Assembly: GCA_029432795.1 (NCBI GenBank)
Contig: JARNMJ010000003.1
Location: forward strand, 62,001 to 126,000
DNA from: Pontiellaceae bacterium B12219
GTDB lineage: Bacteria > Verrucomicrobiota > Kiritimatiellia > Kiritimatiellales > Pontiellaceae
Direction: 5' to 3'
Length of the DNA: 64,000 bases
The notes beneath the pieces are model-generated. The model was not told the DNA's origin and ran no database searches. It worked only from the letters and a program-made list of their open reading frames with translations. Position numbers and translations under genes: made by a program. Every line of letters starts with the position of its first letter. Position 1 is the stretch's first letter. This document shows, piece by piece, positions 5,638 through 37,366 of the stretch.

Positions 5638-5669
5638 TTACTTACCGGAAACGCCGTGAATGTGTCGGA
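5638..5669 (-). promoter_or_regulatory. Prophage bipartite promoter element, copy 1 (tail operon)
   Basis: On the minus strand this reads CCGACAC, 12 variable bases, then TCCGGTAAGTAA. It ends 26 nt before the GTG of the first tail gene and follows the terminator of the metal-efflux cassette, so it restarts transcription for the tail genes. It is one of seven copies in the prophage. Confidence 0.75.
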
Positions 5670-5679
5670 GAGTTGATAC

Positions 5680-5720
5680 AAAAAAGGAGAACGGTTTCCT
5701 GTTGAGGGGAACCGTTCTCC
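5680..5720 (-). terminator. Rho-independent terminator of the metal-efflux cassette
   Basis: A perfect 11-bp stem, GGAGAACGGTT/AACCGTTCTCC, surrounds a 13-nt loop. On the minus strand it is followed directly by six T. It lies 32 bp after the CDF transporter stop, so it isolates the cassette from the tail operon. Confidence 0.9.
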
Positions 5721-5751
5721 TTATCAAAGATCTACACTGTAAATCTGAATA

Positions 5752-6726
5752 TTAGATTTGTCTGCACCGGCATGAATCATCAGTGCAGTCATGAATCTCT
5801 ATTGTTGTATGTTTCAGTTTTGAAAATTCTGATAGGCGCGAATGGTAGTCTTGGGGACTACGCTTTTCTTTTGTGACAATAGTCATTGTGGCGGCAAGAG
5901 CGTTTGAGCTAACCGGCCAAATATGGAGGTCTCCAATAATACTGTCTCCATCAGACTGAATCGCCTCGACCACTTCATTATGAAGGTTTTTTTGAGTGTT
6001 TCCATCAAGCAGGATGAGTGCGCTGCTCCGAAGCAAACCCCACGCCCACTTGGCAATGAGGACTCCTCCAACGATACCCATAACGGGATCGAGGAAAACC
6101 CATCCCAAATACTTTCCTGTAATCAGAGCGATAATCGCCAGAACAGAAGTCAACGCATCTGCAATCACATGCAAATATGCCGCTCGAAGGTTGTGATCAT
6201 GGTGATGATCATGCTCATGATGGTGGTCATGTTCATGGTGGTGGTCATGTTCATGGTGGTGATGGTGACCTTCTTGACCATGGAGCATCCATACGCTTAC
6301 TACGTTGACAATAAGCCCGACAAGAGCGACTCCAATAGCTTCATTAAATGCAATATTTACGGGGTGAAAAAAACGCTCAACCGACTCAACCATCATATAA
6401 ATTGCTGTTCCGCCCAAAAACAGAGCGCTTGTGTAAGCGGATAGAATCCCGAATTTTCCGGTGCCAAAACCAAACTTTGAAGAGCCGGAATACTTTCTGG
6501 CCATGACATAAGCAAAATAGGTGATTCCCAGCGCAAAAGCATGAGTTCCCATATGCCAGCCGTCTGCCAGCAAAGCCATTGAACCGGTAAAGATTCCAGC
6601 AACAATTTCTACACACATCGTTATCCCGGTCAGGATAATTACTTGTAGTGTCTTTTTTTCATTTTCCTGAGCATCACCTTCGAAATTGTGCTCATGATGA
6701 AGCTGCTTTAATACGTTTTCGTGCAT
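5752..6726 (-). CDS. Cation diffusion facilitator metal efflux protein (DmeF-like)
   Basis: This 324-aa inner-membrane transporter has about six membrane segments. A His/Asp/Glu-rich cytoplasmic run lies near residues 147-180, as in CDF exporters. The second helix carries DGWHMGTH, a HxxxH in place of the usual HxxxD/DxxxD. The fifth carries YLHVIADAL (HxxxD). The HMGTH form is typical of DmeF-type cobalt/nickel/cadmium exporters rather than ZitB. It would export divalent metal in exchange for protons. AAGGA lies 8 nt before the ATG. It follows a CsoR-family repressor by 20 bp and has its own terminator. The cassette looks AT-richer than the flanking phage genes and interrupts the neck/tail gene order, consistent with a lysogenic-conversion gene. 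Confidence 0.92.
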   Translation of the reverse strand: MHENVLKQLHHEHNFEGDAQENEKKTLQVIILTGITMCVEIVAGIFTGSMALLADGWHMGTHAFALGITYFAYVMARKYSGSSKFGFGTGKFGILSAYTSALFLGGTAIYMMVESVERFFHPVNIAFNEAIGVALVGLIVNVVSVWMLHGQEGHHHHHEHDHHHEHDHHHEHDHHHDHNLRAAYLHVIADALTSVLAIIALITGKYLGWVFLDPVMGIVGGVLIAKWAWGLLRSSALILLDGNTQKNLHNEVVEAIQSDGDSIIGDLHIWPVSSNALAATMTIVTKEKRSPQDYHSRLSEFSKLKHTTIEIHDCTDDSCRCRQI

Positions 6727-6746
6727 GATTTATGTCCTTGAGGCTA

Positions 6747-7025: not shown

Positions 7026-7052
7026 CTGAATACCTTTCCAAATTTAATAGTG

Positions 7053-8745: not shown

Positions 8746-9609
8746 TTATAGGCCCAGTTTAATTCGCGCCATGATGTCCGGGCGGGTGATACCCTGACCG
8801 ATTTCCGACCAGACCAGCCAGCCCGTCTTGAAGCGTGTTTTCTTCTCGATGGACTCCGCTTTGAGCTTTTCGCGAACGGGAAGCTTTCCGACTTCCTTGT
8901 CAGGAATAATCAGCACCTCGTCTAACGGCATCGCGGCGGTCAACAAAATGCCACCGGTTCCGTAGTTTTTGACCACACCTTTCTGTCGAAGCTCCAGTTT
9001 GGTCTGCGGATCGAGGTCCCATCCGCGTAGATCGTTGAAACGGCGACCGCGCATCACGATATATTTTACCGACAGCTCCAGGTCTTCAATAATAGAGATA
9101 GCTTCGTTGAGCGCCTCTTCGGTCAGCGTATTGCCAACTACCTCCACCGTGTTTTCTGGAGGAACCGCAGCGGATAGCACGTTGATTGAGCGGCTATCCA
9201 TCTCTTTGCGAATGGCATCCGATGCGCTGGTCTGAATATCCATCAGCGTGCCGATGTTGCCGTTTTTGAGGACGGAAATGTCGACCATCGGGTTGGAGTG
9301 GATTCGGTTTGTCGGGAATTCGACTTCGTCGCTACCGACTTCTTGTTCCTGCGCTTCGCCATCTTTGCTGATCCAGTGGGCCTTAACGGTTGGCTTTTTC
9401 TGGTACAGCGGACGCTCACCTTTGGGCAAGGTGTGACGAGTGAGCAACAGGGAGGAAATCTCCTTGCGCCGGATTTCCTGCTCAATAGGCGCGGCGATAG
9501 CGGCGGCCAATGCCTGCATCCCCTCGGGAGACTCCAGGGCCTCCGTCATCAGTTGCGCCATGGTCTCCATGTATTCCTGACTGTGAATATCAATAAGTTC
9601 GTTTTCCAT
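8746..9609 (-). CDS. Major capsid protein (probable HK97-like fold)
   Basis: This 287-aa protein follows the protease/scaffold gene and the decoration-like gene, the expected place of the major capsid protein. It has an acidic N-terminal arm (residues 1-60). The central part, TVEVVGNTLTEEALNEAISIIEDLELSVKYIVMRGRRFNDLRGWD, matches the spine-helix/A-domain pattern of HK97-type coats that line up as 'l...al..i...g...k.ivm....f.dl'. DEVLIIPDKEVGKLPVR and a C-terminal 'GWLVWSEIGQGITRPD' strand complete the picture. No catalytic motif is present. Good SD and independent start. Confidence 0.8.
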   Translation of the reverse strand: MENELIDIHSQEYMETMAQLMTEALESPEGMQALAAAIAAPIEQEIRRKEISSLLLTRHTLPKGERPLYQKKPTVKAHWISKDGEAQEQEVGSDEVEFPTNRIHSNPMVDISVLKNGNIGTLMDIQTSASDAIRKEMDSRSINVLSAAVPPENTVEVVGNTLTEEALNEAISIIEDLELSVKYIVMRGRRFNDLRGWDLDPQTKLELRQKGVVKNYGTGGILLTAAMPLDEVLIIPDKEVGKLPVREKLKAESIEKKTRFKTGWLVWSEIGQGITRPDIMARIKLGL

Positions 9610-9625
9610 TGAATAGGCTCCTTGG

Positions 9626-9991
9626 TTAAATCAGCAGTTTAAATTTCAGCACGCCGCTCTGAACGGAGATGGCCTGAGCGATCACATGTTCATCATCGGC
9701 AATGTTTCCGCCCTCAAGCGTACCGGTGTCCGAAACTTTCAAATCGTCACCGGGATTGATCGTTCCTTCGAAAACATCGGTTTCATACGTGCCGCCTTTG
9801 CAGTGAATGCCGGGCATTTCGCCGTCGGCATAGCTCTTTATCAGCATTCCGAACGAGCGGACTTCTGGATCGGTGTTAACGGCAAATTGGTCGTTTCCGG
9901 CCACAGCTACAAACTGACCGATCTCGCCGCTGCCCTGCATATAGCCATCGCCATATGCGAGGCCGGGATGGGTGGGATTAATAAATGGCAT
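9626..9991 (-). CDS. Capsid decoration-like protein
   Basis: This 121-aa, Gly- and Asp-rich, strand-dominated protein lies between the protease/scaffold gene and the major capsid gene. It holds short beta segments (GQFVAVAGNDQFAVN, TYETDVFEGTINPGDDLKVS, HVIAQAISVQSGVLKFKLLI). Composition, length and position match phage head decoration proteins, which stabilise the capsid surface. It is preceded by a strong SD-like AGGAGA. A single His-Cys pair near residue 63 is the only notable detail. Confidence 0.7.
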   Translation of the reverse strand: MPFINPTHPGLAYGDGYMQGSGEIGQFVAVAGNDQFAVNTDPEVRSFGMLIKSYADGEMPGIHCKGGTYETDVFEGTINPGDDLKVSDTGTLEGGNIADDEHVIAQAISVQSGVLKFKLLI

Positions 9992-10008
9992 ATCGATTCT
10001 CCTTGGGG

Positions 10009-10536
10009 TTAGGCGTTGGTGGTTGCTTCGCTTCCGACGCGGTTGTTATAGGCGGCCATGAATCCGTTTTTCAGGCGGTCTTCGAGCGATAGCTTCTGAT
10101 CGTCTACATCGTGCGGACGGACTCCAGCAGACGTTCGCATTGGCGATTCATCCGAGGCTTTGGCCTTCTTGGGGGCAGGCTCTTTCTCCGGCGGCGGTTC
10201 CGAAGTATGTGTTTTAGCCATCTTTTCGTAGGCGGCCTCGGTTGCGGAAAAGGCATCATCCGAGAGTTCGGCCAAACGCTTGAGTTCGTTGTCTCGCTCT
10301 TCGCCGAAGTCCATGCCCTGTTTTTCGAGCTTACCGATCAACTGGCTGGCACGAGCTTTGGATGCAGCGGCTTTCTGCTCGGCTTCCAGTTCCTCAATTT
10401 TCTTCTGAAGTTCGGACACCTTGGCTTTCAGCTCACGGTTTTCCTTTTCCAGCTCCGCATTCGGCGTTTCTTCTGCAGCTTTGCTTTTCGCGGCATCGGA
10501 AGACGACGGATCGGGTTTCTTGTCTTTATCGTCCAT
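10009..10536 (-). CDS. Nested in-frame scaffold protein start
   Basis: An internal ATG at 10536 (MDDKDKKPDPSSS) lies in frame within the protease fusion. A perfect AAGGAG (minus strand, 10545-10550) lies 8 nt upstream, as strong as the SD of any independent gene here. It would yield a 175-aa protein made only of the coiled coil (NAELEKENRELKAKVSELQ region) and C-terminal tail. This is the lambda C/Nu3 arrangement, in which the scaffold is made both as the tail of the protease and on its own. The ribosome site is seen. Separate expression is inferred. Confidence 0.65.
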   Translation of the reverse strand: MDDKDKKPDPSSSDAAKSKAAEETPNAELEKENRELKAKVSELQKKIEELEAEQKAAASKARASQLIGKLEKQGMDFGEERDNELKRLAELSDDAFSATEAAYEKMAKTHTSEPPPEKEPAPKKAKASDESPMRTSAGVRPHDVDDQKLSLEDRLKNGFMAAYNNRVGSEATTNA

Positions 10537-12342
10537 TAGGGATTCTCCTTGGGGTTGTTGTTCATCAGATGGATCCTGAACCGACGCCACCTGTAGAATT
10601 CGGGCCTGCTCATCGGCTCCTTTTCGGTCGAGAAGGCCCAGACCGGAAAAGGTAACGCCATGCAGGATTTCGTAGACGGGTTTGCCGCTCAGTTCGCGGC
10701 CTTTAAATTTGCGCAGATGGGTGCAGTAGTCGGCTTTGCTTTTGAATCGCTTGTGGCAGACGGAGCATTCGCCTTCTTCATAATCGCACTCCATCGAAAC
10801 CTGGGTGATGATTCCGCGCTTCATGAGCTTGTAGGCCAATTGCGCGTTGGGTGTGTCGGCTGCGTAAAGTTCACCGACACATTCAATGCGCCCGCCTTGC
10901 TCATCTTCCTGATAATCTGCGGCGACGATCCCGCCCACAATATCGCCGAAATCCTGCGAGTGCTGCAGGTCGACCTTCTTATTGATGGCCGTCATGTGAC
11001 GTTGGTTTAGTTCTTCCGCAGTAAAGTGATCGCCATTCCGATTGGTACCGGTTCGGCAAAGAATAAAGGTGAACTGGGGATCGCCAGTAGCTCCCATCAT
11101 CGCCTCTGAGCGCATAGCATCCTCGTCTAAAGCAAGCTCCACCGGAATAGATGTGTGGAAATTCGCAGCGGCGGCCATGGGTTGGGTCTTTTCTTCCGAT
11201 GCTTTGGCCGAGGTTCCCTTCACGCAAACAAACAGGCGTTCTTTTGCGGACGAAGCGGAGCCACGTTTTGCCGTAATGGAATAGGAATGATCCTTGGATT
11301 GCATTCGTGATGAGCGACCGTGCCCCGCAATGATCTTTTTCATCTGCGATTCGTTCGGGTGTGCGTGGTCGCGGTAGGAAATCAGCCAATGCTTGATGTG
11401 CTTGGCGTTACCGAGGAACGTTTCAAAAAAGGCGGAGGAGTTGCCTTTGGTGACGGTCTGGTGATCCGTGGCATAATGCTTGGTCTTACTGTCCTTGTTG
11501 ATTTCAAGACCTTTCCAGTAGACCATGAGGCCTTCCACAAAGTGATAGGCTTTTTCATAGTTGGTGGTCGAAAATTCAGTCGCATACGGCGGATCAAAAT
11601 AGGCCAGATCGGCATTCACCTTCGGCAGGATGGCGTTCACATCGCCATGGTGAGCCTTATTCGTTTTACCGTTATCGAACACTAGCGCATTGACTCGCTC
11701 CAGATTCTTGCGGAACCGCGCCTTAAACTGTTCGGGCGTATCCTTACGTTGGCCGCCCTCGGCAGAGGATGAAAAATGCCCGAACCCGCCGCTGGCGCAG
11801 GTTTTCCCCAGCGCAAACAGTGCGATATCCTTTTTATAGCCGGAAAGTTTGTCGCAGTTGGCTCGGATCGCATCGATCACCCCATGGACACCTTTAACAA
11901 AGAAGATGCCCTTAAAATTATCGCGCACAAAGGTTCCGGCATTGGCGTTGTCGGCAATCAGCGCATCCATTTCTGCTTCGGTCAGGGTGACTGAGCTGTT
12001 TTCAACAATCGCCTTTGCCGCATGATGGCAAAAATGGAGCCGGTCGTTGGTGGTTACCTGCATCCCTTTGGATTTGTACATATAGGCGACAACGGCAGAA
12101 CCGGAAAAGGCATCCAGTACCGAGCCGACCTTGTCGGGCGTGTTTTTCCAAATCCAATCCACGAGCTTTTGTTTACTGCCGATGTAATTGGTGATGTATT
12201 TCGGGCGTTTCCCGGGAGCCTGCTCTTCAGGAGCTGTCTGTTCGGCGGCATCGGTTCCCAGTTCTTCGGGATCGATTGCGAGCGCCGCATCTGCTTCTAA
12301 GAGAAACGCCAGCCGGTCAAGGTCGGTCGCAAATGTCTTCAT
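10009..12342 (-). CDS. Fusion: D12-class DNA adenine methyltransferase + prohead protease + scaffold
   Basis: This 777-aa protein has three parts. Residues about 48-310 are a D12-class N6-adenine methyltransferase, with ITNYIGSKQKLVDW, the AdoMet motif DAFSGSAVVAYM and catalytic DPPY near residue 249. Residues about 400-600 look like a capsid maturation protease, with His in DLQHSQDFGDIVGGIV and Ser in ITQVSMECDY, the His/Ser spacing of HK97/T4-type prohead proteases. A Cys/His cluster (CSVCHKRF...YCTHL) near residue 527 may bind zinc. From residue 603 a long coiled coil and Pro/Lys-rich tail form a scaffold. GGAG lies 7 nt before the ATG, and a bipartite promoter is 62 nt upstream. Protease and scaffold are often fused. 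A methyltransferase at the front is unusual. Confidence 0.88.
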   Translation of the reverse strand: MKTFATDLDRLAFLLEADAALAIDPEELGTDAAEQTAPEEQAPGKRPKYITNYIGSKQKLVDWIWKNTPDKVGSVLDAFSGSAVVAYMYKSKGMQVTTNDRLHFCHHAAKAIVENSSVTLTEAEMDALIADNANAGTFVRDNFKGIFFVKGVHGVIDAIRANCDKLSGYKKDIALFALGKTCASGGFGHFSSSAEGGQRKDTPEQFKARFRKNLERVNALVFDNGKTNKAHHGDVNAILPKVNADLAYFDPPYATEFSTTNYEKAYHFVEGLMVYWKGLEINKDSKTKHYATDHQTVTKGNSSAFFETFLGNAKHIKHWLISYRDHAHPNESQMKKIIAGHGRSSRMQSKDHSYSITAKRGSASSAKERLFVCVKGTSAKASEEKTQPMAAAANFHTSIPVELALDEDAMRSEAMMGATGDPQFTFILCRTGTNRNGDHFTAEELNQRHMTAINKKVDLQHSQDFGDIVGGIVAADYQEDEQGGRIECVGELYAADTPNAQLAYKLMKRGIITQVSMECDYEEGECSVCHKRFKSKADYCTHLRKFKGRELSGKPVYEILHGVTFSGLGLLDRKGADEQARILQVASVQDPSDEQQPQGESLMDDKDKKPDPSSSDAAKSKAAEETPNAELEKENRELKAKVSELQKKIEELEAEQKAAASKARASQLIGKLEKQGMDFGEERDNELKRLAELSDDAFSATEAAYEKMAKTHTSEPPPEKEPAPKKAKASDESPMRTSAGVRPHDVDDQKLSLEDRLKNGFMAAYNNRVGSEATTNA

Positions 12343-12404: not shown

Positions 12405-12436
12405 TTACTTACCGGAGAAGTTTGAAAAGTGTCGGA
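12405..12436 (-). promoter_or_regulatory. Prophage bipartite promoter element, copy 2 (capsid operon)
   Basis: The minus strand reads TCCGACAC-N12-TCCGGTAAGTAA. It lies 62 nt before the ATG of the methyltransferase-protease-scaffold gene and just after the stop of the 115-aa gene. It should drive the capsid and neck genes down to about 7105. Confidence 0.75.
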
Positions 12437-19321: not shown

Positions 19322-19388
19322 CCTGTTCTCCGTCGCGGGGTTCATCGCGCACATTTGCCCCGTACGGGCGAAACAATGCCTTGGTCGG

Positions 19389-19420
19389 TTACTTACCGGA
19401 GCGGCGGAAAAAGTGTCGGA
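19389..19420 (-). promoter_or_regulatory. Prophage bipartite promoter element, copy 3 (portal operon)
   Basis: The minus strand reads TCCGACAC-N12-TCCGGTAAGTAA, in the gap between the terminase stop (19428) and the portal start. It should drive portal, the 1519-aa head protein and the two small genes after it. Confidence 0.75.
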
Positions 19421-19427
19421 GGGAGCG

Positions 19428-21830: not shown

Positions 21831-21863
21831 ACGCCCCGACTTAACCACAAAGGAGACCAAGCC

Positions 21864-23912: not shown

Positions 23913-23999
23913 AGGGTAATCTCCGATTTTTGATTTTCGTTTTGACAAGCCGGGGTTCGGGGCGGGAGAAAGATTTAGCCCTGTATCGAACCTCAACGC

Positions 24000-24031
24000 T
24001 TACTTACCGGAAGCCGGGGCAATGTGTCGGA
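24000..24031 (-). promoter_or_regulatory. Prophage bipartite promoter element, copy 4
   Basis: The minus strand reads TCCGACAC-N12-TCCGGTAAGTAA. It overlaps the last codons and the TAA stop of the 91-aa HTH gene, so it serves the small-terminase-like gene downstream. That one copy is partly coding yet keeps both boxes intact supports functional constraint. Confidence 0.7.
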
Positions 24032-24275: not shown

Positions 24276-24978
24276 AGGCTTTCTCCTGATTTTTCATCCA
24301 TGATTGAGGAACCTTGGAGTTGTGAAATTTCAGGACGCGCTCCCGGCTGGTGCCTATCCCGTGCACAATCTGAATGTAGGATTCGGTTACCCCGGCAATC
24401 TCCCGATCACCACCAACAAAACAGATCAGTCCATAATCGTCACCGCTGGGAAAACGGTGTCGGCCTTGGCTTTGATAGAGCTGTGCTTCCGTCCAGCCAA
24501 GCTCCATGGCTTGATCCCGAATCGCATCTACTTTAGCGACGACGCTTGATTTAACGTCCGCAGAAAATTTAAACGTTTCGTTTTGTGGATAGATCCACCG
24601 TTCCTCCTGAAAATCCTGCGGAGGCTGATAACGGTTTGAGTTGAAATTTTCACAGGCCGTTTTGAGGGCATCCTGCCCGAACATCTCAATGGCATGGTGC
24701 TGAATGGGATTGAAGCGCTCTCGGAGTATGTTCCAGTTTTTGTCTGAGATCCGTTTATTCCGGTGCGCGGACTGAGCGGTCTGCATGCGGGAACGGAGCC
24801 AAGCAAAATAGTCGGGGGTTAACTGACGATAGGTTTGCCCGTCATGGTTAACGTCCTGCTCCTGGAGTGTGAGTACCTGCGCGTTCAAATCGGTAGAAAC
24901 GTACAGCGCCTGCTGCTCGCTATCTTCATCGTGGTCATTGCTAGACCCCAGTAAATGTCGGATGCCTTCGAGAAACAT
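24265..24978 (-). CDS. Unknown prophage protein (237 aa)
   Basis: This 237-aa hydrophilic protein is preceded by CGGAG 6 nt before the ATG and by promoter copy 5 at 28 nt. The first part is acidic. The middle, LTPDYFAWLRSRMQTAQ...NWNILRERFNPIQHHAIEMFG, is helical and resembles hypothetical proteins often found near plasmid/phage replication genes. The C-terminal part has a beta-rich GDDYGLICFVGGDREIAGVTESYIQIV segment. No catalytic motif is recognised. Confidence 0.65.
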   Translation of the reverse strand: MFLEGIRHLLGSSNDHDEDSEQQALYVSTDLNAQVLTLQEQDVNHDGQTYRQLTPDYFAWLRSRMQTAQSAHRNKRISDKNWNILRERFNPIQHHAIEMFGQDALKTACENFNSNRYQPPQDFQEERWIYPQNETFKFSADVKSSVVAKVDAIRDQAMELGWTEAQLYQSQGRHRFPSGDDYGLICFVGGDREIAGVTESYIQIVHGIGTSRERVLKFHNSKVPQSWMKNQEKAYVH

Positions 24979-25006: not shown

Positions 25007-25038
25007 TTACTTACCGGAAACAGAGGAGGAGTGTCGTA
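25007..25038 (-). promoter_or_regulatory. Prophage bipartite promoter element, copy 5
   Basis: The minus strand reads TACGACAC-N12-TCCGGTAAGTAA, with one change at the edge of the first box (TA for TC). It ends 28 nt before the ATG of the 237-aa gene and sits between that gene and the iteron region. Confidence 0.72.
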
Positions 25039-28400: not shown

Positions 28401-28792
28401 TTTTCCAACTGCTCTAATCGTTCTGGCGACAGGCCATAGCCCGAAAGCGGCGGAAGCCCGGCCTTTCCAGCAAGGAAATCGCGGGCATTCTTATGGCTCT
28501 CGGGCATGGGGCCGGATTGACCGGCGGTGACAGTGCCGTACAAAACAAACTCCGCCAGCTGCAGCACGTCGCCGCCCACACCGCATCCGAAACAATACCA
28601 GCCCTGTTTATCGAGCATGATATGCAGCGAACGCCGAGACTGACTTTGATGATGCGGACAATCACACAGGATACTTTGCTTCGTTTCCTGCGTGATCCGT
28701 CCGGACAGCAACTCACGGGCAATATCGCCAATATCGACTTCGGTAATTTGACGATAATATTCGCGAATATTATCAGCCGTACCTGAACTCAT
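25493..28792 (-). CDS. Phage primase-helicase (CHC2 zinc finger, TOPRIM, P-loop helicase)
   Basis: This 1099-aa protein has an N-terminal CHC2-type zinc finger (CPHH ... WYCFGCGVGGDVLQL, residues about 44-80) and a DnaG-like catalytic core. TOPRIM (RIIITEGVTDCIALMQ, near residue 289, with YICQDNE) comes next. Following a linker, a helicase-type P-loop domain has GSAGSGKTTASKL near residue 759 and Walker B-like IALDNIE. It would unwind DNA and make primers at the phage origin, which probably lies just downstream. The ATG overlaps the RecD-like gene stop by 4 nt. It is the last gene of the replication operon. Confidence 0.9.
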   Translation of the reverse strand: MSSGTADNIREYYRQITEVDIGDIARELLSGRITQETKQSILCDCPHHQSQSRRSLHIMLDKQGWYCFGCGVGGDVLQLAEFVLYGTVTAGQSGPMPESHKNARDFLAGKAGLPPLSGYGLSPERLEQLEKERAHELRVKDALSTLAAFYHQQLKSNPDAMEWLKSKYAISDETIDALQIGFADNTGVMAHLLSGDQKFTKRELAATGAFRTTSQDGLVPFFEKRMIFPYWSRGRVVFMIGRKTPKTPNNKWEQGKYKKLPVYDEHQRPTIAPFINNAVLFNEDALLSKPERIIITEGVTDCIALMQQGFPVISPVTVRIRGEDWKRLIPKMREIKTVYICQDNEISEAGLNGALITARTLAKHQIETKVVTIPLNESQTLARSALRERYNLTTAVGPKELIKLLAGRSDEEVREAKALLAQAKIDANDYFASGKGSSDFEALLASACTPVELGIQNLPDDMSESERDRLLEPILAEVAAHSPLKQDRLLKQIHTRINKTVPLAALKEEIRQVSRNRKKSETEAEKRAKRLSGITPGSCKARIQEALFDSELATGSADYTQAAEAAFEWFSEHSGQFFYTLAKEPFMYYDNSIYWMDSSDRGRKRHFASMIYKMTGLVPTNNGGRIFFDVLPTLALIKGERRDHFSWLHSDISKHAVYFNLNNEAQEIVKITPDGIEVMKNGGNADGVILDGSQKMKPIKFMSDADVEEADRLLIDLIFHNLTCSPDDRYLIMSWMSCFLLIDFSGTKPMTRFEGSAGSGKTTASKLISTLLYGDPQHKKATDAANYTDGTKNPLIALDNIEVKQMTEELTTFMLTSITGIAKEKRKGGTDSETVSERTKCLLNTTGIEPLCGELSEIQSRSFVINFERKNQTNACFIESEIIAAIQKNRDLILSALMKRTSEVLAMIRDGKRSKTMELLLGALGDHDKRRCNEYLSLMYLMMLSNDSAEEREQALSEVRPEFVQQIKSLNEATQATARDSNHIATALHALFKAYKNAVELDEKATFSGERSNHLSSFIERYQIKLSHRDHLDGLSSSQLLIALRRISKDFSLEFDFKTPAQLGKRIANDMEIIESAGLRIERTQNKKMKSWQYSIELI

Positions 28793-30990
28793 TGAGCCAC
28801 CTCCAATGCGGCTGGATTCAGCAGAATGGAGAGGAATGTTTTGCGTTCATCGACCTGTGATTTCTTCGCACAGTTTCTGACGCCCCAATGATCGCCGATA
28901 ATGATGGCCGTCTTCTTTGCACGGGTGACGCCGGTATAAAACAGGTTCCGGTGGTGCATAAAAGAATGCATCTTATGAACGAGCAATACAGCGCATGGGA
29001 ATTCCGATCCCTGGACTTTGTGAAAACTCAGTGCATAGGCGAGCTGAATGTCCTTCAGGTTGGGCGAACCTTTTTCAATCTCCACGGCCACACCGTCAAA
29101 ATCAACCAGCAACGTGCCGTTGGGCAAAACGTCCAGCACATACCCAATGGAGCCGTTCATCACATTGAGATCATAGTTGTTCCGAGTCTGGATTACCTTG
29201 TCGTGTTTGAATAGAGGCGGTTTGCGTTTGGGCGGTATCGGCGGAACAATTACATTCCAGAATTTCTTCTGAATGAGACGCTGTAGCTCTTCATTCAAAA
29301 CCTGCGTACCAAGCGGGCCTTTATGCGTGGGGGTTAAAACCTGGACTTCTTTTACGAGGTCAAATCCCAGTTCATCCAATCGCGTCGAAAATAGGCTGAG
29401 CAGGAAACGACGGGCTTCGGATGGATCGGTGAATTTGTCAGCCAGATACCAGTCCCGGCATTCCTTCGATTTTGCATCGCTGGTTTTGCGGACCTCTCCG
29501 TTCAATATCGCGATGCTATTTTCTTTCAGCACTCCGGCCTGACGTACCACCTTATCGAGAATGACCGTCGGGATCGCCCGGGTCTGAATCAGGTCTCGTA
29601 GAACATTGCCCGGCCCAACCGGAGGGAGCTGATTGTGATCCCCGACGATAATAATAGCGGTGCGCGATGCATCAACCGCCTGAATCAAATGCCATGCAAG
29701 CGATACATCCACCATGGAAAATTCATCGATAATCAGCCAATCGGCATCAATCGGATTGTCCCGGTTCCGGGCGAACTCTTTACCGTCATAGCCCAGCAGG
29801 CGATGGATGGTGGTTCCCTGACGGCCACTGACTTCTTCCAGACGTTTGGCTGCTTTACCGGTCGGCGCAGTCAATACCACTTCCAAATCACACTCTTCGC
29901 AGATCGCATTGATTGCGGCCACCGTGAAACTCTTACCCGATCCAGCGCCCCCGGAAATCAGACTGATTGAGTTGCGCAAGGCCAGCTCTACAGCCTCAAA
30001 CTGCTTATCATTCAGCGTTTCGCATTGGCGAAGAATGATGGTTTTCAGATCCTTCTCCACCCCGAAGTGCGGATTGGGTTTGGTGGCCCGCTTAAAGAAG
30101 TCTGCCAGTTCCCGCTCCATCTTGAGGATTTCGGGCAAGGCAACCACAAACCGGCCACCGATTGAATCGCAGACCAGCAGGTTTTCATGAATCAACTGAT
30201 CCAATGCGGTTTCAATTCGATCCCGGCTATCAAAGCAATCCATCACCAACAGGAGATTGGACTGATCAAGCAGCTCCTCGTATTCCACCCAGCAGTTCCC
30301 TTGATCAAGCGCGTCTTTTACACAATAGATGATTCCGGCTCGAACGCGGGGCGGATGGTCTTTTGGTGTGCCGAGCTGGCGGGCAATCTTGTCTACCTTC
30401 TTAAAGCCGAAGCCGCGCAGTTCCCGAATCAGAATATATGGGTCGGCCTTCAGCACATCGAGCGCATTGCCTCCCAGCTTATCCACGAGCGTCGTGACCT
30501 GATGGTGGGTCAGACCGAAGGCGGAAAGCCATGCCAATACGGCGTTGACGCTCCGGTTCTTCGCCCATTCTTCCTGCAGACGCTCGACGGCCTCAATGGA
30601 GACTCTCGCTTCCGTAGCGATGCGTACCGGTTCAGCCATCAACGTGGCTTCAAAATTATCACCGAAGGCCTCAACGATACGTCGGGCCTTGGCCGGGCCG
30701 ATGCCTTTAATCTCCGGATGGTTGGCCAGATAATGAATAAGCCCGTCCTGATCCAAGTCCAAGTCGTGCTCCATCATTTCCACCTTAAACTGGCGACCAA
30801 ACTTCGGATGCGTTGCCCATTCTCCAACAAAAACAACAGGCTGCTCTTCCTGCGCAAACAGGTTTCCAGCGAACTGCACGGCATCGCCGCTGTCCGTCAG
30901 CATTCGACCGGCTGAAAATTTCGGCCCAGCAAAATATACTTTTTCTATACGTCCCCGGAGTCTGACGGGGGTTTTTCTTTTTCGTGGCAT
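28789..30990 (-). CDS. RecD2-like superfamily 1 DNA helicase
   Basis: I start at ATG 30990 (MPRKRKTPVRLRG) with GGAGG 8 nt upstream, giving 733 aa. A frame opening at 31062 is only an extension. An OB-like N-terminus and helix-hairpin-helix segments (HPEIKGIGPAKARRIVEAFGD) come first. Then Walker A GGAGSGKSFTV near residue 348, Walker B WLIIDEFSMVD, GDHNQLPPVG, the 2B-type YALSFHKVQGSEFP and final TGVTRAKK motifs follow. This is the RecD2/TraA order. It is a 5'-3' helicase for replication or recombination. The start overlaps the ERCC4 gene by 46 nt. Confidence 0.9.
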   Translation of the reverse strand: MPRKRKTPVRLRGRIEKVYFAGPKFSAGRMLTDSGDAVQFAGNLFAQEEQPVVFVGEWATHPKFGRQFKVEMMEHDLDLDQDGLIHYLANHPEIKGIGPAKARRIVEAFGDNFEATLMAEPVRIATEARVSIEAVERLQEEWAKNRSVNAVLAWLSAFGLTHHQVTTLVDKLGGNALDVLKADPYILIRELRGFGFKKVDKIARQLGTPKDHPPRVRAGIIYCVKDALDQGNCWVEYEELLDQSNLLLVMDCFDSRDRIETALDQLIHENLLVCDSIGGRFVVALPEILKMERELADFFKRATKPNPHFGVEKDLKTIILRQCETLNDKQFEAVELALRNSISLISGGAGSGKSFTVAAINAICEECDLEVVLTAPTGKAAKRLEEVSGRQGTTIHRLLGYDGKEFARNRDNPIDADWLIIDEFSMVDVSLAWHLIQAVDASRTAIIIVGDHNQLPPVGPGNVLRDLIQTRAIPTVILDKVVRQAGVLKENSIAILNGEVRKTSDAKSKECRDWYLADKFTDPSEARRFLLSLFSTRLDELGFDLVKEVQVLTPTHKGPLGTQVLNEELQRLIQKKFWNVIVPPIPPKRKPPLFKHDKVIQTRNNYDLNVMNGSIGYVLDVLPNGTLLVDFDGVAVEIEKGSPNLKDIQLAYALSFHKVQGSEFPCAVLLVHKMHSFMHHRNLFYTGVTRAKKTAIIIGDHWGVRNCAKKSQVDERKTFLSILLNPAALEVAQ

Positions 30991-31406
30991 GGAGCAAACC
31001 TCCGGTAAAATCGGGATAAAAAAGTTTCGGTGAAAAGGCAAGAGGCCTGCCGGTCCGAGCAAAAGTAGACCGGCACACCGAAGTCGATAATGATGGAGGC
31101 AATGGTTCCCGCGAGGGCGTTGGGATGCACGTCGCTCAAATAACGCCCTTCGAGCAGATCGCGAAAGTTCCCTTCGACAACCACACAGGCTGCGTCATAA
31201 TCACGAAGCTTCTGCAGTTCCTTGTGAAAGCGTTTGCGCCCGCGAACGACGGTGGAAACAAAATCAGCCATCGATTTGCGCTCCACAGCCACCCGGTCTT
31301 CAAAGCCTTCAAGGGAATAATCGCCCGCCTCCAGTTTCCGGCGAATAGAGGGAGCAGAGAAAGAATATCCCTCTTGCTCCCTCGTATCGATTACAACGGT
31401 CATCAT
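30945..31406 (-). CDS. ERCC4-type nuclease
   Basis: This 153-aa protein carries the ERCC4/XPF nuclease signature: VVIDTREQE at the start, AGDYSLEGF (GDY), then AVERKSMADFVSTV, the V-E-R-K-S core. It continues CVVVEGNFRDLL and GVPVYFCSD, as in this fold. The family cuts branched or flapped DNA. It sits between the SSB-like and RecD-like genes, in a recombination block, and overlaps the latter by 46 nt. The length is that of a minimal stand-alone nuclease, as found in phages and archaea. Confidence 0.88.
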   Translation of the reverse strand: MMTVVIDTREQEGYSFSAPSIRRKLEAGDYSLEGFEDRVAVERKSMADFVSTVVRGRKRFHKELQKLRDYDAACVVVEGNFRDLLEGRYLSDVHPNALAGTIASIIIDFGVPVYFCSDRQASCLFTETFLSRFYRRFAPCHEKEKPPSDSGDV

Positions 31407-31409
31407 GGC

Positions 31410-31883
31410 CTAAAACGGGATCATGTCGTTTACGTCCTGACCGTCCGCCGAACCGGTTGTATCGCTTTCATCCAACACAATGCGTCGGTTGAAATAGATA
31501 TTCTCGAATTCGTTTTTCGTGCGCTTGGTCACTTCGAGGCCAACATCCAGCAGGGACTCCAGTTTGCCCGAAAGCTCCGACAACTTTTCAATCTGAAGAC
31601 CGCAGGTGTAGAGATCCTGTTTCAGCCATTTCACATTGTCTTTACTGGCGATCACGTTATTGCGCCACAGCAGACGGCCTTTATGGGCCGGACCGAGAAT
31701 CTTCAACGCCCACTTCAGCATCGGATTGCCGGATGTCTCTGAGCGGGTCAGCTCAACGCGATCCACTTTGACCTGATATTTCCCGTCTGGAATCTCGTCG
31801 AATTCCTTCTCTTCAACATCTGCCGTTTCAAAGTCGTCATCAAACTGCGCGAGGTCGAGATCGTCATTTTCATTCCAGCTCAT
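31410..31883 (-). CDS. Single-strand-binding-like protein (DUF669 type)
   Basis: This 157-aa protein has an acidic N-terminus and an OB-like core (DGKYQVKVDRVELTRSETSGNPMLKWALKILG ... GRLLWRNNVI, then LDVGLEVTKRTKNEFENIYF). It ends in an acidic tail, DVNDMIPF, which mimics the SSB C-terminal peptide (DDDIPF) that recruits partners. DUF669-type phage proteins with this pattern sit next to Sak4-like ATPases and nucleases, as here. It likely coats single-stranded phage DNA. Confidence 0.85.
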   Translation of the reverse strand: MSWNENDDLDLAQFDDDFETADVEEKEFDEIPDGKYQVKVDRVELTRSETSGNPMLKWALKILGPAHKGRLLWRNNVIASKDNVKWLKQDLYTCGLQIEKLSELSGKLESLLDVGLEVTKRTKNEFENIYFNRRIVLDESDTTGSADGQDVNDMIPF

Positions 31884-31885
31884 TA

Positions 31886-32629
31886 TTATTTCTCCTTGGA
31901 TTTAGCGGTTTCTTTTACGGTGGGCTTGGGAGCGCTCGTCGCGGCAAACGCCTCCATAAAGGATGGGAAGTCGAGCGGGATTACTTCCGGCAGCATTCCG
32001 GTACGGTCACCTGCGTCATAGTTGGGGCTGGGTTTCGTTCGCATCACCCGTTGGTGGATAGGCTTGCTGTTTTCTCCGACCTTGGTTTCAAGATCACAAA
32101 ACAGAATCAAGTCGACCAATCCGGTCAGCAGTTTGCGGGCTTTGTCCGGAAGCGTTGGCATGATACGCGTGTGTTTACCGGTACGCGTTTCAATCTCGCG
32201 CTCCTGTGAATGCGAAATGAGAATCAGGCCATACGGAAGGAACGCCAGTTTGTTAATGACCCGCTGAAACTCATTGTTGATCAGCGCATAGCCCTTGCCG
32301 AAACCGAGGTCGGACTCGTGCTCAATCTGGAATTTTTTACATACATAGTCGGCGCACATGCGATAGGCATTATCGACCGTATCAATGATGATGGTTTTGA
32401 AATCGTGTTTTCCTTCCGCAATTTCGGCGCAGGCCTGCAGTAGGTCATCCCAACAGGTGATCGGGGCTTCGAACACCTCAAGGGAGTTCAGTCCCGGCTC
32501 GGTTGCAAGGAACAGGGCGTTTTCGGCATGGGAGCACCACGTTGACTTCCCGATTTTGCTCGGTCCGTAGACCAAGGCGGTCAGGTTATGCAGGCTTGCT
32601 TTCGGTTTTGTTTTGCTTTGAGGAAGCAT
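31886..32629 (-). CDS. Sak4-like RecA-fold ATPase (phage recombination)
   Basis: This 247-aa protein has the short P-loop ATPase pattern of Sak4/phage nucleotide-binding proteins (AAA_24). Walker A is GPSKIGKSTW near residue 21, then FLATEPGLNSLEVF. Walker B is IIIDTVDNAYRM near residue 78, and LPYGLILISHSQERE follows. It probably helps load strand-exchange or annealing activities on ssDNA with the SSB-like protein next to it. The C-terminal tail is Lys/Thr-rich. 31 bp separate it from the nuclease gene upstream. Confidence 0.88.
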   Translation of the reverse strand: MLPQSKTKPKASLHNLTALVYGPSKIGKSTWCSHAENALFLATEPGLNSLEVFEAPITCWDDLLQACAEIAEGKHDFKTIIIDTVDNAYRMCADYVCKKFQIEHESDLGFGKGYALINNEFQRVINKLAFLPYGLILISHSQEREIETRTGKHTRIMPTLPDKARKLLTGLVDLILFCDLETKVGENSKPIHQRVMRTKPSPNYDAGDRTGMLPEVIPLDFPSFMEAFAATSAPKPTVKETAKSKEK

Positions 32630-32660
32630 AGTTATCTCCTTCGGTTAATGATGTTGCGGG

Positions 32661-33695
32661 TTAAAAAACAGGGTTCTGCGGATCCGACTTCGGTGCATCG
32701 CTTTTCGGCTCTGTCCGGAGTTCCTCATGCGGGCGGACCTCCTCGAAGCAGTTCTCGATAACGTTGGGGTTTTCGCCACTACGGCAAAGCGGGTAGTAAG
32801 GACAGGCCCGGCCATACTGAAAACAAAAGGCGGTGTTTCGATAAAATGTGTTTCGGCGGCGAGCATCGAGCATCGCTTTGGACAGCTCCCATAGCTCACT
32901 GCGCAGCTCGGTAAATTGATCGCGGGAAAGGTATAGCTCCTCGCGATGGAACATGCCCGGATCGTCATACTTCGCCCTGAGCCGCGCCTGAAAGGCCTCA
33001 TCTGTTTCCGGCATCTTGCGTTTTGCGCTGCTTTTTCCAGTCTTAGATTTGGCGATCAGTTCGGCACGCCGAGTTTCAAACTCTGCTTCGGTTTCACCTT
33101 TGCTCTGGCGCAGTTTTGCTTTAACCAGCACGTTGTAAATGATGCCTGTGATTTTGATGCCAAGCGTCTGCTCCAGGTACCACGCATAAAGAATGATCTG
33201 AAAGTCCGTCCAGAGTCGTTCCAAGTAAGCGGCATCAACCTGCGCAGCGGTTTTATGCTCCAACAGGAAATACTGACCATCCTGAATCACCAGCCCGTCA
33301 ACCTTGCCCGCCAGCACAAAACTGCGGGAAGCAGCGTTGGTATCCGGATTGATAATGGAGCCTTCAAAGGTTTCTTCCAGCGCCTGAACATCGAATCCCT
33401 CTGTGGCGTACCGTTCCGAATAGGAGGTCATCATTGCGGTAGCCAAATGCCAGTCCGCTAATTGTTTATCGTCCTTTATGCGGTCGGCATACGTGCGGTC
33501 GATATGCTCAATCACCTTTTCAAGTTCGCGCTCGCCGTGCCAAATCTCAAGGCAGTCGTGAATCACGGATCCGAAAGCCATATTGTGGTCTTTTTCTAAT
33601 GGGACGAGATTGCGAAGGTAGCGGTATTCACAGGCCTTTCGGCAGTTGCGGAACATGCGCCACATCGAATAGGTAGTGATCATCGGCTTATTCAT
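32661..33695 (-). CDS. PD-(D/E)XK nuclease of RecB/Cas4 type
   Basis: This 344-aa protein starts TYSMWRMFRNCRKACEYRYL, the common RecB-nuclease N-terminus (SQLs...C..ky.y). It has SVIHDCLEIWHG (the GxxxH motif), KVDGLVIQDGQYFLLEHKT (D-x-E-x-K core) and QIILYAWYLEQTLG. The C-terminus carries clustered Cys (CFQYGRACPYYPLC ... ENCFEE), which with the N-terminal Cys could bind an iron-sulfur cluster as in AddB/Cas4. It would degrade or resect DNA in phage recombination. The stop is just before a short intergenic gap, and the start overlaps the 104-aa gene stop. Confidence 0.88.
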   Translation of the reverse strand: MNKPMITTYSMWRMFRNCRKACEYRYLRNLVPLEKDHNMAFGSVIHDCLEIWHGERELEKVIEHIDRTYADRIKDDKQLADWHLATAMMTSYSERYATEGFDVQALEETFEGSIINPDTNAASRSFVLAGKVDGLVIQDGQYFLLEHKTAAQVDAAYLERLWTDFQIILYAWYLEQTLGIKITGIIYNVLVKAKLRQSKGETEAEFETRRAELIAKSKTGKSSAKRKMPETDEAFQARLRAKYDDPGMFHREELYLSRDQFTELRSELWELSKAMLDARRRNTFYRNTAFCFQYGRACPYYPLCRSGENPNVIENCFEEVRPHEELRTEPKSDAPKSDPQNPVF

Positions 33696-34009
33696 TACGC
33701 CACCCCCTGAGCCATTTTCTGTTCGGCTTTGGATCCGAAGACATCGCCGTTTTGGCGATCAATCATCACGGCGCGTTCTCCATATTCTTTGGTGGCGAAG
33801 CCGGTGAAAATTTTGGCCAGATCACTGCCGATCTGCGTCATGGTTTCGATCAGGCAGGTGCGTTTTTCTTTGTTTACGGTGAAGCGGGATTCCATACGTA
33901 CCCGGGAGTGACCGTACAGGCTTTCGACGGCCAACAGAGCCAGCATAAAAGTGTCTTCCATTTCCTGTGCCGGAACATCCGAGGCAAAGCGATAGGTGTA
34001 GTGTTCCAT
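33695..34009 (-). CDS. Small protein at the head of the replication operon
   Basis: This 104-aa protein has no recognised family. A helix near residue 20 (EMEDTFMLALLAVESLYG), a short basic strand and a central helix (TQIGSDLAKIFTGFATKEYGE) are visible. It is the first gene after promoter copy 6, which ends 75 nt upstream of its ATG, and it overlaps the nuclease gene by one base. Conserved position at the head of the block suggests a role in replication or recombination. Confidence 0.7.
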   Translation of the reverse strand: MEHYTYRFASDVPAQEMEDTFMLALLAVESLYGHSRVRMESRFTVNKEKRTCLIETMTQIGSDLAKIFTGFATKEYGERAVMIDRQNGDVFGSKAEQKMAQGVA

Positions 34010-34084: not shown

Positions 34085-34116
34085 TTACCTACCGGAAACA
34101 GGTGAAAAGTGTCGGG
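34085..34116 (-). promoter_or_regulatory. Prophage bipartite promoter element, copy 6 (replication operon)
   Basis: The minus strand reads CCCGACAC-N12-TCCGGTAGGTAA, with one change in the second box. It lies between the sigma-factor stop (34121) and the first replication-block gene, so it should drive 34009 down to 25493. Confidence 0.75.
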
Positions 34117-34120: not shown

Positions 34121-34705
34121 TTAGAGGTATTCTTTCAGCCCAGCTTCCTGAAACGCCTCGCGCAGAAGGGTCAGGCGGTAATAAAGGGTGCCGCGACAAA
34201 TGCCGGTATCCCGCGAAATCTCCATCATATTTCTGGTCCGCAGTCGTTCGCAGAGGTCACGCAATTGTTCGGGAAGCGAAGCGATGACCTCCTCCAGATC
34301 AATCTGCATATCGCCAGACTTTCGCTCCAGTGGTTCGCTGGTTTTCGATGCCGGATTCAGGTCGCTGCTCAAAAGGTCAACCCGCTCGTCTCGGTCTCCG
34401 TAACTTCCGGGAACGATCTCGTTTAGGGAGGTAGAACAAAGGCGGCAATCGCGGCGTTGTGCAAATCGCTTTTCCAGCAGCGACGCAATGCGGCGTTCAA
34501 CAATCCGGGCCATAAAGGTGGTCTTTTTGGCTTTGGCCGGGTTGTAACGTTTCATGCGTTCGAGCAGGTCAATCATTAGTTCCTGCTCCAGGTCGGGGCG
34601 GTCGCTTTCGGTGAGACCAGCTTTGCCAATCAGCAATCGGGCTTTGTTTCTGATAAGGTCGGCGGCGTAGGTATCAATACCTTCATACGAATTCGGTGAT
34701 AACAT
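34121..34705 (-). CDS. Phage-encoded sigma-70-like factor
   Basis: This 194-aa protein has sigma region 2-like sequence (DLEQELMIDLLERMKRYNPAKAKKTTFMARIVERRIASLLEKR, residues about 38-80). A linker with CRLC follows, then region 4 (SLPEQLRDLCERLRTRNMMEISRDTGICRGTLYYRLTLL, about 138-178), a clear helix-turn-helix. This is the two-domain order of small sigma factors. AGGAG lies 7 nt before the ATG. Its promoter region contains three GGTGAAATTTCAC sites that may control it. Copies of a bipartite promoter-like element in front of prophage operons make it the obvious candidate for recognising them. A reading as terminase-associated protein is possible but weaker. Confidence 0.82.
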   Translation of the reverse strand: MLSPNSYEGIDTYAADLIRNKARLLIGKAGLTESDRPDLEQELMIDLLERMKRYNPAKAKKTTFMARIVERRIASLLEKRFAQRRDCRLCSTSLNEIVPGSYGDRDERVDLLSSDLNPASKTSEPLERKSGDMQIDLEEVIASLPEQLRDLCERLRTRNMMEISRDTGICRGTLYYRLTLLREAFQEAGLKEYL

Positions 34706-34962: not shown

Positions 34963-34997
34963 AAAAAAGCCCCGACCCAAATGAATGGATCGAGGCT
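34963..34997 (-). terminator. Terminator of the accessory two-gene unit
   Basis: On the minus strand AGCCTCGATCC pairs with GGGTCGGGGCT through 11 positions (including G-T pairs), around an 8-nt loop and followed by six T. It lies 30 bp after the 356-aa gene stop. Confidence 0.82.
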
Positions 34998-35026
34998 CTT
35001 TATAGAGTGGTTGTTATCAATGGCAG

Positions 35027-36097
35027 CTACCAGCTGTCGTCTGTACCCTCCGAAAGAATTGTGAAGCGGCAACGATAGCTACCAGAGGAATCATCCCAGT
35101 AGATGGGGTCATCTTCCAAATGGAAGAATGCTCGGAGTCGTTTTGAAAGAGCTGCCTTCTGCGATTTCAAGTTTGTAGCGGCCAGTTCACTGTTCCAATC
35201 AATTGCCCCCTCTGTCGCAGCAAAAGCTAGGAAGGCAACCCACTGCTTTGTGGGCTTCTTATTTCTTTGGTTGCTCATTCCCATATCGCTATAGGTGTAC
35301 ATGCCGGTTTTTTCACCGGCCCAAATCCTGACAGTGTGATTGTCGCGGAACTGAATTTTGATGTCTTCCCATGTGGTTCCTTTCGGAGTCTGGAAGAATA
35401 CGGTGCCGCCGGAATCCGCTTCAGGCACCTGATCCAGCAATGGCTTAAAGATGATCTCAGGCGTCCGGTTCACAGTGAAAGTCGATTTGTTGATATTGAA
35501 ATCTTCCGCTAAAACGCCTAGCGCACATTTCTTTTGTGCCAGCAGTTCTTCAATGGATGGTGTCAATCCACAGCGGGAGGGGATGATCAGTGTAAACGGA
35601 CCGTCTTGGGTGTGGCAAAGCTGACGACAAATATCAAATAAGGTGCGTTCCGTTTTTTGCATGGTGACGAACACCGGGTAGCGAAATCCCTCGGTCGGGA
35701 CAAACTCCCCAACGTTCCATGTGCTACAGAGACCATTGACCGACGATTCTTTAAACGAAATTGCCAACGCGGAACATAACGCCCGGTTGATAGCAGACTG
35801 TTTGAGCTGGTAAACCAGCAGGTCGCTACGGGACACCTGAACCTCCGGCTCTCCCTCATCACAGATTGCCACAATATCATCATCGGAATGCCGTACGATT
35901 CGGCGTGGGCAGGAGAAATCGCAATCCGTGTCGCAGGGAATAGAGTCGACTTTATCTTTGGTCAGGGAAAGGAAATGCTTTTTGAAATCGGCGGCTTGCG
36001 GGCAGTCGGACAGGATCCGGTTCCACTGAAGCATGCAGGCGGAGTTAAACGGTAGCAAATTGAGGAACGACCATACTGGATCATTCACCCGAGTCAC
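35027..36097 (-). CDS. Accessory-unit protein 2, unknown (356 aa)
   Basis: This 356-aa protein has no recognised domain in its first two thirds. Clustered Cys (CDTDCDFSCPRR, near residue 55, then further Cys) could bind metal. A conserved-looking segment, FTLIIPSRCGLTPSIEELLAQKKCALGVLAEDFNIN, follows. The last 75 residues (KQWVAFLAFAATEGAIDWNS ... SKRLRAFFHLEDDPIYW) read like a winged-helix domain. The start overlaps the 387-aa gene by 17 nt. It is terminated before the sigma gene, so the two genes are a separate unit. A role in superinfection immunity or lysogeny is suggested by position only. Confidence 0.65.
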   Translation of the reverse strand: MTRVNDPVWSFLNLLPFNSACMLQWNRILSDCPQAADFKKHFLSLTKDKVDSIPCDTDCDFSCPRRIVRHSDDDIVAICDEGEPEVQVSRSDLLVYQLKQSAINRALCSALAISFKESSVNGLCSTWNVGEFVPTEGFRYPVFVTMQKTERTLFDICRQLCHTQDGPFTLIIPSRCGLTPSIEELLAQKKCALGVLAEDFNINKSTFTVNRTPEIIFKPLLDQVPEADSGGTVFFQTPKGTTWEDIKIQFRDNHTVRIWAGEKTGMYTYSDMGMSNQRNKKPTKQWVAFLAFAATEGAIDWNSELAATNLKSQKAALSKRLRAFFHLEDDPIYWDDSSGSYRCRFTILSEGTDDSW

Positions 36098-37244
36098 CGC
36101 CTGTCACAATAAAGCCGCGATTATTCAGCCAACGTTCGATGGCCTCCGCATGCTCGTTACACTTATACTCCGCCCGGTTTGCATTCGTGATTTTTACCAC
36201 TTTGGGCCGCGCTTCATTTTTAAATTTAACGCCGAATTTGATCTGGGTAATGGCCCCCTCGGGCGGGAGCGCTTGTCCCGAATGCCGCATGGATGCGAAG
36301 AGATCATCCGACTTAAAAACTTTCACATCATTGAATGGCCCATTGAGAGCAATATGTACTTCTCGCAATTTAACATCTTCAAATTCGTCGATATCTTCAA
36401 AACGAACGGAATCTTCTTTATCGGTGCGAATCGGATCCAGATTGAACTGTTTACTTAGGTCAAAAAACTTTCGGTCCTGAAAAATGTGAAGACCGAAGGC
36501 TGTGCGATATAATTGAATCTCGCCCTTAGCTTCGGCGTTGATACGCAACTCCCCATTGGCGGGGTTGTAAACCACAACATCATGCTTTTCCGGACGGAAG
36601 TGGTAACTTTTGGAATCCCCGCCATCGATGATGGCCGCTCTGGAGTAGCGCTTTCCATGACGAATCATGAACCAGACGTAATCATCTCTTAGGGTGCAGA
36701 TTACTTTTGAGTAACGACCTTTTAGCTTTTGGAAGAACCAATCATCAAGTGCGCTCTCCAGCTCCCCAATAATCTCTTCAGAGGGCTCTTGGAACTCTGG
36801 AATCGTTTTCCTGCTGGTTTGAAAGTAGTCGTATGATCGCTTGCTAACAGAGAGAAGGTTGCCGCTGATTCGTTTCAAAAGTTTGGGCCGAACCATCCAA
36901 AGCTGAAGCGCCAGATCAGCCGGAGTACTATTTTGTTCGGCAATGAATAGATCCGGCTCACGATCAAGGTAGTCCAGAATTACCTCTGCGCCATCTTCAC
37001 TGGCCACATCATTTACATAATATAACGCCTCGGCCAGATCATCTGGGGTGGCGTCGTCGGAAGTAATCAGGATGCGGCAAATTTCAGCGTAGTCAGGCTC
37101 TTTCTGGCCCAGTTCTGCCAGTACATCCAATCCGCGTCCGAGGAAATACTCGGCATGCGGCTTAAAAAAATCAATCAGATGCTTTTTATCTATCTGCTGC
37201 AAAACCTCCGGTTTAGAAAATTGTCGGAAATTTAGCGTACTCAT
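36081..37244 (-). CDS. Accessory-unit protein 1, unknown (387 aa)
   Basis: This 387-aa hydrophilic protein is mixed alpha/beta. The first half is helical (DYAEICRILITSDDATPDDLAEALYYV and similar). The second half has AKGEIQLYRTAFGLHIFQD and a region ending YKCNEHAEAIERWLNNRGFIVTGG. I find no nuclease, NTPase or protease motif. Its promoter region (37245-37330) is divergent from the recombinase cassette. It is the first gene of the two-gene unit. Such paired unknown genes at a prophage edge are often defence or immunity modules. Confidence 0.65.
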   Translation of the reverse strand: MSTLNFRQFSKPEVLQQIDKKHLIDFFKPHAEYFLGRGLDVLAELGQKEPDYAEICRILITSDDATPDDLAEALYYVNDVASEDGAEVILDYLDREPDLFIAEQNSTPADLALQLWMVRPKLLKRISGNLLSVSKRSYDYFQTSRKTIPEFQEPSEEIIGELESALDDWFFQKLKGRYSKVICTLRDDYVWFMIRHGKRYSRAAIIDGGDSKSYHFRPEKHDVVVYNPANGELRINAEAKGEIQLYRTAFGLHIFQDRKFFDLSKQFNLDPIRTDKEDSVRFEDIDEFEDVKLREVHIALNGPFNDVKVFKSDDLFASMRHSGQALPPEGAITQIKFGVKFKNEARPKVVKITNANRAEYKCNEHAEAIERWLNNRGFIVTGGDSGE

Positions 37245-37335
37245 TCAGGTCTCTCACTCTTTGAAGCTTAAAGACCTCAAATATATATAACCAACCTCGC
37301 GAAATAAAATGGAAACCCATTTTTAGTTCAATTTC

Positions 37336-37366
37336 CCGACGTTTTCCTAACGTTTCCGGTAGATAA
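37336..37366 (+). promoter_or_regulatory. Prophage bipartite promoter element, copy 7, plus strand (recombinase cassette)
   Basis: The plus strand reads CCGACGT-N12-TCCGGTAGATAA, the same boxes and exact spacing as the six minus-strand copies with a few changes. It ends 34 nt before the ATG at 37401. Its orientation follows the gene it faces, which supports promoter function. Confidence 0.72.

Follow-up and report, generated by a model that had tools for sequence, protein, structure and literature searches.

What reads a two-box DNA element that recurs along a prophage of Pontiellaceae bacterium B12219? The element, CCGACAC-N12-TCCGGTAAGTAA, lies in a stretch of 64,000 nucleotides (contig JARNMJ010000003.1, positions 62,001 to 126,000, forward strand; here called the window), and coordinates refer to the window unless a contig or locus is named. 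A preliminary description had listed seven copies as a promoter regulon of the prophage, recognised perhaps by a sigma factor encoded at 34121-34705. Our analysis makes it very probable that the element is the promoter of this phage-encoded sigma factor and that it would switch on the rest of the lytic programme.

Copies of the element in the window and in the host genome

The window was searched for the element with up to 3 mismatches, and exactly six matches were obtained, every one on the minus strand. The copies at 5638, 12405, 19389 and 24000 have no mismatch and those at 25007 and 34085 have one; in shuffled windows, 0.01 chance matches were expected per window. All six had been named before and are confirmed. 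The earlier strand assignments of 34085 (minus) and 37336 (plus) are correct, but 34085 is not the sole minus copy, as all six good copies are on that strand. For the copies with a clear start codon (1, 2, 3, 5 and 6), its distance is given below, and the proposed 26-75 nt ahead of the downstream starts holds for these five.

5638..5668, minus strand: element copy 1, heads an operon starting at 5611; GTG 26 nt downstream
12405..12435, minus strand: element copy 2, heads the operon of the DNA methyltransferase and the major head protein; ATG 62 nt downstream
19389..19419, minus strand: element copy 3, heads the portal gene; ATG 67 nt downstream
24000..24030, minus strand: element copy 4, heads an operon with the genes 23352-23996, 21531-23003 and the large terminase
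25007..25037, minus strand: element copy 5, heads the gene 24265-24978; start codon 28 nt downstream
34085..34115, minus strand: element copy 6, 5 nt past the sigma stop codon, heads the replication/recombination operon; start codon 75 nt downstream
37336..37366, plus strand: element copy 7, degenerate (4 mismatches), in the opposite orientation, faces the DUF2924 and serine recombinase genes

Two extra exact copies were found to the left of the window at contig positions 53534 and 59803 (window -8466 and -2197). Beyond these eight, no copy with two or fewer mismatches occurs in the 4.7-Mb host genome. The boxes are 12 bases apart in eight of eight copies, and when spacings from 4 to 30 were scanned in the genomes G000 and G024, no box pair was observed at any spacing except 12. 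Information content, calculated over 24 de-duplicated sites of seven related phages, is about 0.9-1.9 bits for each base of the boxes and close to 0 in mid-spacer, which bears out the description of conserved boxes at an invariant distance with a free sequence between them. A G is weakly preferred 7 nt past the -10 hexamer, a position that would be consistent with a start site. Compared with the housekeeping sigma-70 promoter (TTGACA/TATAAT), CCGACA shares four of six bases and the -10 region GGTAAGTAA has no match.

Copy 7, CCGACGT-N12-TCCGGTAGATAA, would be dismissed by itself as too weak to count. It was retained because the sister prophage of G024 has a counterpart at the corresponding place with a near-identical spacer, and because in further prophages a copy with 2-3 mismatches lies some 4.5 kb ahead of sigma, on the other strand. 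The seventh copy of the preliminary description thus stands as a weak one that recurs in related prophages.

The sigma factor and its covariation with the boxes

The gene at 34121-34705 encodes a protein of 194 amino acids (aa). It matched phrog_1740 (RNA polymerase sigma factor) with E=6.6e-17, and Pfam Sigma70_r2, the profile for sigma region 2, with 2.3e-5 at the gathering score. The match to TIGR02937 (sigma70-ECF, for extracytoplasmic function) had 1.3e-7 and 31.4 bits, under the curated cutoff of 42.9. In a profile search against solved structures the protein matched RpoE/SigE. The AlphaFold model shows two helical domains with a disordered linker between them, and the best solved-structure matches of the model in Foldseek were ECF sigmas. 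At the C-terminus, helices 127-187 of this moderate-confidence model would form the helix-turn-helix of region 4, and regions 1.1 and 3 are absent. The typical ECF -35 box with its GGAAC-like AAC motif is not found; here the box is CCGACAC. The profile matches are weak but consistent, and the protein is classed as a sigma-70 factor of ECF-like type with two domains. Its closest relative in the named-phage collection is the sigma of Wolbachia phage WO with 21-25% identity.

The aligned sigma factors were too varied to yield a pattern for scanning, and an IMG/VR search with the single sigma protein gave no match. Relatives were reached via the major head protein instead, which gave 78 viral loci and, among named genomes, 49 loci, with hosts among the Desulfobacterota, Ectothiorhodospira, Sulfidibacter, Armatimonadota and others. 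The preliminary description had asked for a motif search in related prophages; close relatives carry the identical element at the same places. About 105 viral loci have the exact element and all carry genes of this phage lineage. Satellites bearing the exact element were also sought among the viral contigs, and every contig belonged to this lineage. Within the genus, sigma and multiple elements occur in the same three genomes, and profile searches recovered sigma from most of the prophage-bearing genomes. Most relatives, diverged phages among them, have an element no more than about 13 nt past the sigma stop codon. As in a phage-encoded sigma with its own promoter regulon, gene and element belong to the same phage and covary.

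Some sequences met on the way deserve mention. The matches in G049 were set aside, being one repeated sequence that is mostly close to contig ends. Near-identical prophage DNA was found in metagenome-assembled genomes labelled Phycisphaerae, Ozemobacter, Anaerolinea and Desulfobacterium (L237-L241), and because such DNA stands under different phylum labels, some of these assignments are probably mis-binned. The sigma gene of the Desulfosarcina widdelii prophage (L251) contains two TGA codons in frame and has the look of a degraded gene. In Desulfatitalea alkaliphila (L258:13736-14090), a contig (C12) away from the prophage bears a pair of element-like sequences that face each other at a distance of 324 bp and adjoin a recombinase fragment.

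Home-made expectation-maximisation motif discovery in upstream regions returned noise only, and the elements of diverged phages were found by gapped-word counting and by reading the DNA behind the sigma genes. In these phages the boxes are altered and the 19-nt register is kept: GCCGGTATATAT (G071), GATAGTAAATAA (G073), TAGGTAGA (G080), CCGACAT (G079), and TCACCAC with TCCGATAAATAT in the Armatimonadota phages. The spacing differs slightly in G076, where the element is TGACCCG-N15-CTGTAGTTAGTC. The recognition helix retains R171 and Y175 in the CCGACA phages, and the helix is altered in G076, which has a different -35 box. G076 and G080 correspond to two prophages on the single complete chromosome of Sulfidibacter corallicola. 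Each has its own, different sigma, and in the pair compared each element is confined to its own prophage. Since the host factors are identical for both, the specificity must be phage-borne. In the G080 contig (545-2575; L116, L244) an open frame of 731 aa joins the sigma in frame to the PD-(D/E)XK exonuclease.

Across 17 lineages, the distance between elements was correlated with the distance between sigma factors (Mantel r=0.63, p=0.0004), and the correlation was 0.51 (p=0.0004) when capsid distance was controlled for. Capsid distance adds nothing to the prediction of element distance once sigma is given (0.008). When the neighbouring exonuclease was controlled for in 13 lineages, element and sigma remained correlated (0.38, p=0.027), and the exonuclease given sigma reached 0.08. 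What is observed, then, is the element with its spacing, its specificity for the phage lineage, and its co-occurrence and covariation with sigma. Both parts of the earlier proposal, the two-box promoter regulon and its recognition by the sigma at 34121-34705, gain support from the restriction to the lineage, the co-occurrence with sigma, the element behind the sigma gene in most relatives, the covariation and the two sigma/element pairs in one chromosome.

The predicted programme and its alternatives

The prophage reads leftward from the tmRNA, starting with the early block, sigma, copy 6 and the replication/recombination operon, which are followed by copies 5 to 1. The blocks headed by copies 5 to 1 carry the terminase, portal, DNA methyltransferase and major head protein genes. 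The nearest named relative of the major head protein, the capsid protein, is that of Bacillus phage G (30%).

34121..34705, minus strand: ECF-like sigma factor, 194 aa, final gene of the presumed early operon
35027..37244, minus strand: two genes (35027-36097 and 36081-37244) upstream of sigma in the presumed early operon, without an element and without a family match
25493..34009, minus strand: replication/recombination operon with PD-(D/E)XK exonuclease, Sak4-like ATPase, SSB-like protein, RecD2-like helicase and primase
17852..20951, minus strand: large terminase (19428-20951) and portal (17852-19435, in-frame ATG at about 19321)
8746..12342, minus strand: DNA methyltransferase (10009-12342) and major head protein (8746-9609)
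37659..39738, plus strand: DUF2924 protein and serine recombinase, adjoining the tmRNA; the recombinase was identified by inspection of its protein sequence and not through a family match
40685-41039: tmRNA

From this arrangement we infer transcription, its timing and the binding of sigma to the elements as follows. The early operon, which ends in the 194-aa sigma, would be transcribed by the host RNA polymerase with a host sigma. The phage sigma would then bring the host core polymerase to the elements heading the replication operon and each of the head and tail operons, with CCGACA(C) serving as the -35 box and TCCGGTAAGTAA as an extended -10 region at the invariant 12-base spacer. Via the weak plus-strand copy 7, it may also reach the recombinase module. 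The remaining lytic programme would thereby be switched on.

Several results weigh against this proposal. The -10 box is G+C-rich for a box of its kind, and the DNA ahead of the early operon showed no sigma-70 promoter that stood out clearly. G070, L249, L250, L252 and L253 have a sigma with no recognisable element directly behind it, G078 yielded no element, and the G085 fragment has elements while sigma is absent from the fragment. For each diverged phage, the choice of box consensus rested partly on inspection by eye of a small number of copies. When we asked whether the -35 box tracks region 4 and the -10 box region 2, the test was not significant.

The element could instead be the target of a phage activator such as P2 Ogr or Mu C, which recruits the host sigma-70 polymerase, and the small sigma would then do another job. 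The -35 box has GACA in common with TTGACA, and activator-driven late promoters are common among temperate phages. However, the box changes follow sigma specifically, beyond what one structural and one adjacent protein account for, the element lies directly behind the sigma gene in most relatives, and both boxes with their spacing resemble a whole promoter. Nor was an Ogr/Delta-like zinc-binding activator found among about 20 window proteins scanned with PHROGs, a scan that skipped some genes. We therefore regard an activator target as improbable.

The repetition of the element at module borders might also point to a signal acting in RNA or in DNA structure, for antitermination, packaging or recombination. 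Such a role is very improbable, given the start codons close downstream, the single direction in each operon, the free spacer sequence and the covariation with sigma. A promoter of a phage-type single-subunit RNA polymerase would likewise be phage-specific, repeated and strongly conserved. The element is bipartite with a free spacer and not contiguous, though, no such polymerase was found among the window proteins scanned, and a sigma factor is present that covaries with the element, which leaves this possibility a next to negligible probability. A promoter read by the phage sigma remains our preferred explanation.

Known phage sigma factors and lone elements beside defence genes

The sigma of Wolbachia phage WO is a remote homologue that also lies beside AAA-type genes and has its own two-box element at module starts. 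Unlike in the present phages, the boxes are GGACGAAT and CGTNNATATA and the spacer varies by one base. This element, GGACGAAT-N-CGTNNATATA, occurs in three copies per record, and a reversed-pattern control gave no copies; this sigma/element pair also favours the promoter proposed here. The sites are behind the sigma gene, divergently from it, and at one more place in each record. In the wMel_KL record the elements precede the sigma-linked operon, a block with DNA methylase, terminase and portal, and a block that ends in the tail sheath gene. The sigma and element sites are:

L383:8640-9640 and 18112
L384:11505-12600 and 18161

The targets of the extra Wolbachia sigma factors of 158-181 aa have been described as undetermined (PMC7397232), and a study of 5' ends reported only sigma-70-like motifs, without lytic induction (PMC12558409).

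Phage sigma factors such as SPO1 gp28/gp34 and T4 gp55 control middle and late genes through a cascade in which the core polymerase of the host is redirected to promoters of the phage (PMC9429907), as proposed here. The present sigma, in contrast, is ECF-like with two domains, occurs in temperate phages of mostly Gram-negative hosts and has different boxes, and one class of element heads replication and structural operons alike. Like the phages studied here, phiEco32 and 7-11 have a phage sigma with a few well-conserved promoters, found by comparing intergenic regions; their motif tgTGATGTTATA is a single block and they are lytic, whereas here two boxes stand at an invariant distance (PMC4331800). 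The Bacillus anthracis lysogen sigmas Bcp25/26 and Wip38/39 also belong to temperate phages but were studied for the lysogenic conversion of host traits, not as a lytic master regulator (PMC2716549). Cellular ECF sigmas (RpoE, SigE) likewise have only regions 2 and 4 and similar fold matches. The phage sigma differs from them by its low sequence similarity, a -35 box without the usual GGAAC and no identified anti-sigma partner.

Single elements were also observed outside this prophage. Two genus-mates without the prophage sigma have one element each, in the same place near the tmRNA, flanked on one side by a type I restriction-modification locus that includes an XRE gene and on the other by a gene of 63 codons; in the window (37659-41039) the prophage, with its DUF2924 and serine recombinase pair, is inserted beside this same tmRNA. 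Searches for the phage sigma in the two genus-mates gave only weak, partial matches, as expected of host ECF sigmas. Between them, the element is identical at 28/31 positions and the flanks at 42% and 57%; the small gene has a dN/dS of 0.36. A further lone element (0-1 mismatch) turned up in just one of 388 genomes of the phylum, G375, where it precedes a gene whose product starts with MDINDLF. This element has a second one in tandem and adjoins an XRE gene and an hsdM-like gene, the latter identified by eye. The element also stands before the small gene in two contigs of the viral collection that encode the same decapeptide. One has HepT, a nucleotidyltransferase-like gene and a C5 methylase as neighbours, the other an XRE gene. 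In all five cases the element precedes a small gene with a product starting MDINDLF[DE]GI, and the phage sigma was not found in those genomes or records. The neighbours are mostly type I restriction-modification/XRE or HepT/MNT toxin-antitoxin genes. Of the five small genes, one is interrupted by a stop and another is shortened. The lone elements with their MDINDLF genes are at:

L166:7362-10301
L167:7261-10209
L265:1400-1990
L268:5531-6553
L269:643-1150

The likeliest reading of the lone elements is that a gene in defence loci may answer to the phage sigma. We tentatively consider it possible that defence loci, bacterial or mobile, took up the sigma-dependent promoter, so that the MDINDLF gene would be on only when a phage of the family makes its sigma, and would act as an alarm or effector. 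The main alternative, a prophage relic, loses weight because the MDINDLF gene is absent from every retrieved phage locus of this lineage.

Taken together, our results offer a sequence-level reading of the transcription programme of a widespread, mostly uncultured temperate phage family that has no close relatives in the named-phage collection. They supply more than 15 sigma/promoter pairs, two of them apparently orthogonal in one chromosome, which would be a resource for studies of sigma specificity and for the construction of orthogonal expression systems. They also provide predicted targets for the small sigmas of Wolbachia phage WO, whose targets the literature had called undetermined. Finally, a phage could be betrayed by its own sigma, to judge from the lone elements in defence loci.

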